NCBI GenBank assembly: GCA_011525625.1
Contig: WYAX01000012.1
Span: 310,001-374,000 of the forward strand
Reading direction: 5' to 3'
Source of the DNA: Nitrospira defluvii
GTDB lineage: Bacteria > Nitrospirota > Nitrospiria > Nitrospirales > Nitrospiraceae
DNA length: 64,000 nt
The position numbers and the translations under genes were made by a program. The notes beneath the pieces are model-generated. The model saw nothing but the letters and a program-made list of their open reading frames with translations, searched no databases and had not been told where the DNA came from. Shown piece by piece: positions 24,507 through 26,167 of this stretch. How positions within the stretch are numbered: the first letter of the stretch is position 1; each line of letters starts with the position of its first letter.

Positions 24507-25004
24507 GTGGCTGACCAATCATCGTTCGATGTGGTGTCGGAAGTCAACATGCAGGAAATGAAAAACGTCGTTGACCAGGCGACGAAGGAGATCAAGCAGC
24601 GGTTCGATTTCAAAGATTCCAAGACCGAGTTGACGTTGAAGGAAAAAGAGAAAGAATTGGTGGTGCTGTCCGACGACGAATACAAGCTCAACGCGGTGAA
24701 CGAGATCATCAAGAGCAAATGTGTGAAACGCGGCGTGTCGCTGAAGGCGTTTGACTACGGCAAGATCGAGGAGGCGCTCGGCGCCACCGTTCGGCAAACC
24801 ATCAAAATTCAGAGCGGCATCTCTTCGGAGAAGGCGAAGGAGATTACCAAGGCCGTCAAGGACTCGAAGCTGAAAGTGCAGGCGCAAATCCAAGGCGAGC
24901 AGGTACGTGTGATCAGCAAGAGCAAGGATGATTTGCAGTCTGCGATTGCGTTCTTGAAGGGAAAGGATTTTGGGATTGATCTGCAATTCACCAACTACCG
25001 CTAG
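24507..25004 (+). CDS. yajQ: YajQ family nucleotide-binding protein
   Basis: 165 residues, normal YajQ length. GTG start preceded by GAAGGAGGACAG. The sequence SSFDVVSEVNMQEMKNVVDQ opens the family, followed by QRFDFKDSKTEL, IKIQSGISSEKAKEITK and the C-terminal LQFTNYR. YajQ proteins bind c-di-GMP and have been tied to transcriptional control and to tRNA or phage-related functions. It follows cstA by 41 bases on the same strand and could share its transcript. With the PilZ gene it is the second c-di-GMP-related gene here. Confidence 0.93.
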   Translation: MADQSSFDVVSEVNMQEMKNVVDQATKEIKQRFDFKDSKTELTLKEKEKELVVLSDDEYKLNAVNEIIKSKCVKRGVSLKAFDYGKIEEALGATVRQTIKIQSGISSEKAKEITKAVKDSKLKVQAQIQGEQVRVISKSKDDLQSAIAFLKGKDFGIDLQFTNYR

Positions 25005-25010
25005 CTTGGC

Positions 25011-25124
25011 CTGGTGAAACAGGCTTCCAGCTTCGTTCTCGCGTCGCTCGGCGGTTCGACGTACAACTCAGTACGCCTCGCCTCCTTGCTCGCTGCGGCC
25101 TTGCTGGGCAGCCTGTTTGACCAG
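25011..25124. repeat. 114-bp intergenic element with 21/22-nt terminal inverted repeats
   Basis: The left end CTGGTGAAACAGGCTTCCAGC (25011-25031) and the right end at 25103-25124 are inverted copies with about 19 of 22 positions matching. Inside lie smaller inverted pieces (GTAC-6-GTAC, GGCG/CGCC), so the whole element could fold into one branched hairpin. It fills the gap between yajQ and the lipoprotein gene and codes for nothing. I see no second copy in this window. Confidence 0.7.
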
Positions 25125-25147
25125 CCCAGAAGGAATTCCTCGGTTCC

Positions 25148-26167
25148 ATGTCCAAACGTCTCTTTTGTCTCGTGATGTTCGTCTTCGTTCTCGGCGGATG
25201 CACAGGCAGTGATCCCGTCGTCGTCATTCAGGTGCATCCCAGCAACCCCGAGATTCTCTACATCGCCACCAACGATTACATCTATAAATCCCGTGACGGG
25301 GGCAAGACCTGGAGCAACCTGTCGAAGGGCATGAGTTACTCGCGGGTGATCGCGATGGGGATCGACCCGTTGTATCCCGCCACGGTATATGCAGGCACAA
25401 AAGGCGACGCAGTGTATAAAAGTTATGACGGCGGCCAGCGCTGGACGTCGATTCGCGCCGGCCTGGATGACGCCACGATTTCGTCCGTCGTCAACCAGTT
25501 CGTCTTTGATCCCGGCGACGATACGCACATCTTTCTGGCCACCACGATGGGGGTCTTCGAATCGAAGAATGCGGGCGAGCGCTGGGTGAAGAAAATGGAC
25601 GGCATGAAGGAAGTGCTGATGGTCGTCACGTTGGGGCTGGATCCTTCACACCCGTCAGTGATGTATGCCGGCACGAGCGGCGGCGTGTATAAGACGACGG
25701 ATCAAGGGATGCATTGGATGCAAGTAAACGCAGGGCTTGTTCCCGAGGGGATGGTGAAGACGTCGCGTGCCCTAGGCGTGACGTCGGTCCAGGTCGATCC
25801 GTTCGCGCCCGACACGGTGTATGCTGCCACGCTGGCCGGGCTCTATAAGACCACCAATGGGGCAGCTTCCTGGGTGCGTATCGGCGAGTCGTTACAGGAT
25901 CAAATGATTGTGGCGATGGTACTCGATCGTGCTCGCGCGGGCGTGCTTTATCTGGCCGGGCGGGATGGCATTCACCGAAGTGAGGATGGAGGCAGGAGTT
26001 GGATGCCGTTGAATGAAGGACTCACCACCACGAACATCCGGTCGCTTGCGCAGAGTGCGGTTGATGCTCAGGTGTTCTATGCCGGCACCAACGGCAGCGG
26101 CTTGTATAAAAGTCTCGATGGGGGAGCGCATTGGGAGGCGTTACCCTCGGTGTTTCCGAAGGAATAG
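25148..26167 (+). CDS. Lipoprotein with seven Asp-box repeats (BNR/sortilin-like beta-propeller)
   Basis: 339 residues. A lipoprotein signal ends with LGGC (Cys18). Seven Asp-box-like units follow at regular spacing: SRDGGKTW, SYDGGQRW, SKNAGERW, TTDQGMHW, TTNGAASW, SEDGGRSW and SLDGGAHW, each ahead of a strand and a HPSNPEILYIAT-type strand. That predicts a complete beta-propeller anchored to a membrane and exposed to the periplasm or surface. Related proteins include Ycf48/HCF136-like assembly factors and sialidase-like propellers, but no catalytic residues are evident. The start lies 23 bases after the inverted-repeat element. Confidence 0.8.
   Translation: MSKRLFCLVMFVFVLGGCTGSDPVVVIQVHPSNPEILYIATNDYIYKSRDGGKTWSNLSKGMSYSRVIAMGIDPLYPATVYAGTKGDAVYKSYDGGQRWTSIRAGLDDATISSVVNQFVFDPGDDTHIFLATTMGVFESKNAGERWVKKMDGMKEVLMVVTLGLDPSHPSVMYAGTSGGVYKTTDQGMHWMQVNAGLVPEGMVKTSRALGVTSVQVDPFAPDTVYAATLAGLYKTTNGAASWVRIGESLQDQMIVAMVLDRARAGVLYLAGRDGIHRSEDGGRSWMPLNEGLTTTNIRSLAQSAVDAQVFYAGTNGSGLYKSLDGGAHWEALPSVFPKE

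Follow-up and report, generated by a model that had tools for sequence, protein, structure and literature searches.

Introduction

Nitrospira are major nitrifiers. The DNA analysed here, called the window, is a 64,000-nt (64-kb) stretch of the genome of Nitrospira defluvii (the source genome). An inverted repeat lies in it between yajQ and a lipoprotein-like gene. From the sequence alone, this repeat had been predicted to be a REP/BIME unit or a non-autonomous mobile element, and to belong to a family dispersed in the lineage. The locus raises the question of what kind of element this is, why it begins at a stop codon, and whether a copy of a dispersed repeat is kept between these two genes for a function.

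The element in the window

The inverted repeat behind yajQ is real, and it is the single one found by the inverted-repeat search within 24900-25250. Its outer arms (25007-25028 and 25107-25128) are 22 nt each, 86% complementary and separated by 78 nt. The element is a long imperfect hairpin that begins at the yajQ stop codon. The family model described below matches 25004-25129 (111.1 bits, E 1.5e-20); the extent given by the original prediction, 25011-25124, was slightly too short. Its statement that the element fills the intergenic gap holds: the element starts at the yajQ stop (TAG, 25002-25004), and 18 nt separate its other end from the ATG at 25148, where the next gene begins in the same direction as yajQ. 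The features are as follows.

24507..25004, + strand: yajQ (DUF520), upstream gene; Pfam PF04461, E 3.8e-65; stop TAG at 25002-25004.
25001..25004, + strand: CTAG, which fits the YTAR target of the family and includes the yajQ stop; from the sequence and the YTAR duplication of young copies.
25004..25129, + strand: repeat element, 127-position hairpin unit, MITE remnant; family model, with relatives found by blastn and covariance model.
25007..25028, + strand: left arm of the outer stem; inverted-repeat search and covariation.
25016, + strand: G of the kept G.G mismatch; its partner is G 25119.
25061..25074, + strand: central GTAC...GTAC hairpin (25061-25064 with 25071-25074); consensus structure.
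25107..25128, + strand: right arm of the outer stem; inverted-repeat search and covariation.
25119, + strand: partner G of the kept G.G mismatch; G.G count in slot copies and family matches.
25148..26167, + strand: downstream gene, BNR/Sortilin-Vps10 repeat protein with a lipoprotein-like N-terminus; Pfam.

The N-terminus encoded by the downstream gene carries what we take to be a lipobox. RNA folds of the element are more stable than those of dinucleotide shuffles on the + strand (z -3.35; 1 of 200 shuffles as good) and on the - strand (z -3.71; 0 of 200). The fold with DNA parameters is weaker (z -1.59; 12 of 200). An open frame of 79 codons spans the element on the opposite strand (24988-25227); it is taken as chance. 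The family model finds no second copy in the window at E up to 1. Rfam gives 0 matches at the gathering score in the locus holding the element.

A strong hairpin directly behind a stop codon could be the intrinsic terminator of yajQ. This is improbable. Simple scans of the gap show neither a terminator nor a sigma-70 promoter, and a consensus scan of 24800-25300 gives 0 terminator-like sites. The G+C-rich stem with a T run that marks an intrinsic terminator was not found, and no U-tract was seen. The next gene, in the same direction, starts only 18 nt on.

A dispersed family

A blastn search of the source genome (4.60 Mb) with 126 bases of the element gives 43 matches at E up to 10. Thirty-seven of 40 copies were aligned (alignment A1); the three excluded are L045 and two with a divergent left half, L037 and L041. 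The covariance model R1, with a unit of 127 positions, was built from A1. With an E-value cut-off of 1e-4 it finds at least 82 places in the source genome; the true number may be higher, as 150 of 3139 candidates from the first look were scored. The family is present in 31 of 31 genomes (the source genome and 30 others of the genus and order), as suspected from the sequence. Eighteen of the 19 genus genomes have 40-108 matches each, and the other 12 genomes have 1-85. The remaining genus genome, G004 (single contig, 4.2 Mb), has 2 family matches only, against 40-108 in the other genus genomes searched; the family may have been almost entirely lost there, or may scarcely have entered this lineage. 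Some copies are clustered or in tandem, like small arrays (G000:C4:281456-281715; C32:288248-288718).

In an even sample of the phylum, 48 of 148 genomes match, 32 of them from the family of the source genome; no genome of that family is among the 20 negatives listed, out of 100. A 24-base core pattern finds at least 117 stretches in GTDB contigs, and all 80 titles among the matches listed name Nitrospira, Nitrospiraceae, Nitrospirae or Nitrospirota. Among these listed matches and the sample of that phylum alone, the element has so far been seen only in Nitrospirota. No paper describing this repeat family turned up in the literature searches, as far as the text of the papers found is available. 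Generic short palindromes, not this family, are counted in N. moscoviensis in the available text on RepRanger (PMC12306157).

Ends, target duplication and transposase

Many copies run about 75 bp past the hairpin on the right; their right end reads ...TTTCCGCAGCCTG and then YTAR, mirroring the left end, which reads YTAR-CAGGATGC(T/G)GAAA. Young copies measure about 200 bp; they have terminal inverted repeats (CAGGnTGCnGAAA), and a copy of YTAR flanks them on either side. YTAR is described as the duplication motif of IS5 insertion (PMC10359306). Terminal inverted repeats and YTAR duplication together make them MITEs with an IS5-type target. The prediction of a non-autonomous mobile element is thus borne out.

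The ends were measured in a relative, the genome G014. The distance between its tetranucleotides is 198-201 bp in 19 of 20 copies (those measured with a strict right end). The ends are CAGG(A/C)TG or near on the left and ...TTTC(C/A)(G/A)CA(G/A)CCTG on the right (19 of 20 copies). With a looser right end, by which all 20 are readable, 17 of 20 copies show an exact 4-bp YTAR duplication, CTAA/CTAA and TTAG/TTAG among them. The same genome carries groups of equal-score, near-identical copies at different sites with different flanks, which is the mark of recent movement. The duplication is exact in 15 of 30 copies in other Nitrospira and in 8 of 26 in the source genome; right ends were allowed up to 4 mismatches, and some of these 26 and 30 may be chance. 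The copies of the source genome look older, and fewer exact duplications are expected for older copies. No second CTAG or YTAR copy is visible to the right of the window element, so that target-site duplications, proposed as a check by the original prediction, are found in the family and not at this copy.

A third copy of the end lies inside the element and makes the left 127 bp fold on itself. The window copy consists of this left 127-bp hairpin module only; the right end of the full element is absent. It is an old, shortened remnant (127 bp) of the Nitrospira MITE family.

A DDE transposase with IS5-like target choice would have moved the elements. The families searched for a parent were PF01609 (G014, G015 and the source genome, G000) and Y1. 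PF01609 has no match in the source genome, and 0 of the 17 PF01609 loci of G014 and G015 carry both element ends. No facing end pairs 0.8-2 kb apart were seen by eye among the matches listed.

A REP/BIME moved by a RAYT (Y1) transposase is hardly credible. The palindromic form, the intergenic position and the many copies suit it, and the source genome has one Y1_Tnp gene, at a locus (L050) that shows no end-like sequence. The unit is 127-201 bp long and makes a 4-bp YTAR duplication. To our knowledge, Y1 enzymes make no target duplication. Y1_Tnp matches occur in 16 of 31 genomes and are absent in 15, whereas the elements occur in all 31; G009 (one contig, 99% complete) has 73 copies and no Y1_Tnp match. 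The REP/BIME part of the original prediction is contradicted by duplication, unit size and Y1-free genomes with elements, and the REP-associated transposase that it proposed to look for has no link with the family.

Stop codons as insertion sites

YTAR contains TAG or TAA, and insertion into a stop codon can therefore rebuild the stop. The MITE would insert at the stop codon, and the YTAR duplication would restore it. The frequent start of copies precisely at a stop can be explained in this way. All counts of stops and gene positions below were made with a home-made codon-usage caller, not a standard program. Among the 56 copies with a recognisable right end, a stop adjoins on the left in 20 and on the right in 13. 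The 26 from the source genome have a stop on the left in 10, on the right in 5 and on both sides in 2; the 30 from other Nitrospira have one on the left in 8 and on the right in 6. For copies without a recognisable right end, the counts are 48 of 88 (left) and 3 of 88 (right), the latter biased low because the right end is lost. Among same-strand neighbours the direction bias is milder (40 to 21, p 0.02).

The window has 60 YTAR sites inside predicted genes, 19 in intergenic sequence and 18 at stop codons. Once insertions in coding sequence are lost, about half of the neutral YTAR sites (18 of 37) are stops. Of the 20 copies in G014, 5 are at stops and 15 between genes; no predicted gene is interrupted by any of them. 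Fresh insertions show no excess at stops in this comparison (5 of 20 against 18 of 37 non-coding YTAR sites in the window), which is limited by short flanks. The low share of stops in G014 would fit better survival at gene ends.

These counts bear on a purely neutral account, judged somewhat unlikely as a whole. The element would be a harmless MITE that landed at the stop and decays slowly; covariation of its arms would come from template switching between them, and its alleles would be exchanged by ordinary homologous recombination. The YTAR target and the loss of coding insertions do explain much of the stop position.

Conserved slots

The original prediction set a dispersed family against a unique copy conserved at this locus only. 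A unique copy is excluded; the copy is also conserved at its locus, which was unexpected alongside dispersal. A full element lies directly behind the yajQ stop in 22 of 26 genus loci. The exceptions are L291 (left piece), L293 (left tip, then an unrelated hairpin family), and L294 and L295 (nothing). With 2 of 26 genomes empty, the element is dispensable in this slot, a point in favour of neutrality.

Two further slots hold the family. The names pyrG, kdsA, glmS and gatC used for them are presumed from our own reading of the translations, not from a database result. Between pyrG and kdsA, a match in sense direction lies no more than about 360 bp upstream of kdsA in 23 of 26 readable loci; L316, L319 and L323 hold reduced remnants, and L322, cut by a contig end, is outside the readable 26. 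Between glmS and gatC, 20 of 29 loci have a family match (weakest E 0.007), some truncated or interrupted. Of the 9 others, 8 hold an unrelated hairpin family and L349 another sequence. Seven of the 8 have a fold z at or below -2. The presence of another hairpin family in 8 of these 9 loci argues against a neutral relic.

Several variants were seen in these slots. Upstream of kdsA, the slot is shrunk in L316 and L323 to a short palindrome (GCAGGATGTTGAACATCCTGC in L316), in which the tips are joined and the interior is lost. In L300, L301, L305 and L315, a second, reversed copy adjoins kdsA; its end enters the likely ribosome-binding site, as CTAGGAGACT in L300, L305 and L315 and as CAGGGAGACT in L301. 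The unrelated hairpin family is a second dispersed family of Nitrospira, with the core GCTCGCGNAACGCGCGNCC; its 27-base core is exact in 14 of 372 loci. It was found in L330, L331, L334, L335, L339, L340, L343 and L354 (gatC slot), in L293 (yajQ slot), and in L113, L116, L171, L176 and L213. Two of its loci are in the source genome and none in the window.

For 55 of the 56 slot copies, the nearest relative sits in the same slot of a different genome. The one departure, the gatC copy of the source genome, is nearest to a row of its own genome that is, by coordinates, the same element entered twice. Identity of the element exceeds that of 4-fold sites in 65 of 67, 108 of 116 and 44 of 44 diverged pairs (three slots), and in 171 of 231, 147 of 171 and 103 of 105 of all pairs. 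These counts argue against slow neutral decay, though they are no clean proof of constraint, since exchange of alleles can inflate the identity of the element compared with that of 4-fold sites. A fold z at or below -2 is found in 20 of 26, 18 of 26 and 20 of 29 slot sequences, compared with 3 of 30 random pieces of the window. In most sequences of the yajQ and kdsA slots, the fold of the opposite strand is the more stable one.

Allele exchange at the yajQ slot

The 22 yajQ-slot elements fall into group A (13, including the window copy), group B (8) and one mosaic. The mosaic (L282, in G040) has an outer stem like B and an interior like A. The distribution of A and B does not follow the trees of the flanking genes. 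Group B requires 7 changes on the tree of about 1.4 kb of upstream sequence (shuffled mean 7.1) and 6 on the tree of the downstream gene (shuffled mean 7.0). Both trees place the source genome (A) and G033 (B) as sisters (100/100 and 100/99). Compared in 50-bp windows, their flanks are 82-100% identical, and the stretch from the yajQ stop to 200 bp downstream is 52-63% identical. The contrast recurs in the pairs L285/L292 (flanks 86-100%, slot 52-66%) and L281/L278 (flanks 80-98%, slot 40-65%). The A-A pair L271/L289 is 88 and 78% identical in the first 100 bp and 62-64% in the second; the second part therefore varies within A too. The B element of G033 is 82-88% identical to the B elements of seven other genomes and 60% identical to the A element of its sister. 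Between the same two genomes, the gatC slot differs by hairpin family and the kdsA slot does not differ.

Besides the slot, the exchanged tract takes in as many as 21 codons at the start of the next gene. When aligned with the protein of the window, all 8 B rows align only from residue 16-22, and 12 of 13 A rows align from residue 1; the exception is the A row L275, which aligns from residue 18. The downstream gene (25148-26167 and orthologs) has two N-terminal stretches, which mostly switch with the hairpin, L275 again being the exception. Most genomes are draft assemblies, in which a single switch could be an assembly error, but several pairs show the pattern, and near-complete genomes (G018, 6 contigs; G009, one contig) show it too. 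Recombination is known to switch intergenic regions, with divergent alleles between the same genes that are incongruent with the gene trees (PMC5890482). Both features are found at the yajQ slot. That the alleles are hairpins of mobile families is the unusual part.

Covariation and the G.G mismatch

In A1, 16 of 25 pairs are changed on both sides, and 0 of 500 shuffles reach any of five measures. The signal is destroyed when the arms are slid by 1-3 columns. The 22 yajQ-slot copies have 51 doubly changed cells (0 of 500 shuffles) and 8 doubly changed pairs, a mild signal reached by 5 of 500 shuffles; further pair types are not above shuffles there (344 of 500). The 51 cells are not 51 events, and part of them stems from the two allele groups. 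In-place compensatory change as the source of the A/B differences in the yajQ slot is not upheld, A and B being scattered alleles. Only changes within a single allele group are regarded as probable in-place compensation, e.g. the 8/126 pair (window copy) and the 17/117 pair (L280, L284).

A G.G mismatch in the outer stem is kept in 22 of 22 yajQ-slot copies, in 18 of 19 and 15 of 15 copies of the other two slots, in 32 of 37 copies of A1 and in 103 of 116 family matches. This argues against blind copying from arm to arm, and so against a neutral origin of the covariation: homogenisation of the arms should remove the G.G, which persists in 55 of 56 slot copies while the neighbouring pairs covary.

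In the outer stem, G.U mismatches are no commoner than A.C ones (33 vs 43 in 116 matches; 10 vs 11 in the 37 of A1), and there is therefore no sign of selection on sense RNA overall. The near equality suits a neutral relic. The counts in the yajQ, kdsA and gatC slots are 4 vs 2, 3 vs 6 and 8 vs 1. The last (p 0.04) leans to sense RNA, weakly, given 42 other stem mismatches there. The missing RNA-strand bias leaves room for a role in DNA or for neutrality.

A role in DNA, rather unlikely in our judgement, would mean that the arms or an extruded cruciform bind a protein (a transposase remnant or a nucleoid protein), the pairing being selected in DNA. Watson-Crick pairing is indeed kept without a G.U or A.C bias, and inner motifs around GTTCTCG and CTGCGGCC are nearly invariant though mostly unpaired in the consensus structure. 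The position behind stops and between same-direction genes suits a role in mRNA, and the G.U excess in the gatC slot points, feebly, the same way.

Interpretation

Taken together, the best explanation, to which we assign a probability of about 70%, is that the element is an old MITE copy, of a family whose target spares stop codons, in a hairpin slot that is kept, with alleles that are exchanged and a probable intercistronic function. The hairpin would act in the transcript between the two genes: it lies behind a stop, 18 nt before a start and at a place free of terminator-like sites. Candidate routes are 3'-end protection, RNase III processing or attenuation. A MITE review describes effects that Correia and ERIC elements have through RNase III and RNase E (PMC10969869). 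At about even odds, and judging from sequence comparison, the window hairpin would set the expression of yajQ relative to the lipoprotein-like gene, and recombination would swap working hairpins.

A wider reading is put forward tentatively, as possible though less likely than not. Intercistronic hairpins of Nitrospira would be interchangeable modules. A MITE with a stop-restoring target duplication would seed gene ends with hairpins, and some copies would become working parts of the core gene pairs yajQ-lipoprotein, pyrG-kdsA and glmS-gatC. The slot, not the sequence, would be conserved from then on; hairpin alleles or unrelated hairpin families would be swapped in tracts of about 200 bp that also carry the beginning of the downstream gene.

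A target duplication with a stop codon in it suggests a simple rule by which a mobile repeat can land at gene ends and leave the genes unbroken. The same slot with different hairpins between nearly identical genes is a natural series, in which the effect of the hairpin on gene output is testable by allele swap.

Comparison with known systems

REP/BIME with RAYT are also dispersed intergenic palindromes behind genes. Their palindromic unit is about 20-40 nt. The Nitrospira element differs in size, in its target duplication and in the lack of a link with a Y1 transposase.

ERIC elements have the target TA. The Nitrospira element has a YTAR target and an unrelated host lineage; it is set apart from ERIC/RU-1 by description, not by sequence. 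RU-1/ERIC of enterobacteria are alike in being intergenic and in many copies, and RU-1 is also 127 bp long (PMC2759123). ERIC at gene 3' ends can alter transcript decay (PMC10969869).

QMITE2 of Coxiella burnetii is a MITE found mainly in 3' untranslated regions (PMC10969869). Its host is different and it is set apart by description, not by sequence. The available text of this review mentions no stop-rebuilding target for QMITE2 and has 0 occurrences of 'stop codon'.

MITEs with an IS5-type target (PMC10359306) are alike in their short length, their terminal inverted repeats and their 4-bp YTAR duplication. The Nitrospira element differs by the third, internal copy of the end, by a parent not found among PF01609 loci and by its restriction to Nitrospirota among the matches listed and the phylum sample.

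Switched intergenic regions, or horizontal regulatory transfer (PMC5890482), are alike in their divergent alleles and incongruence with gene trees. As far as they are described in the available text of that source, the present case differs in that the alleles are hairpins of mobile families, the genes have the same direction and the exchanged tract reaches into the first codons of the downstream gene.
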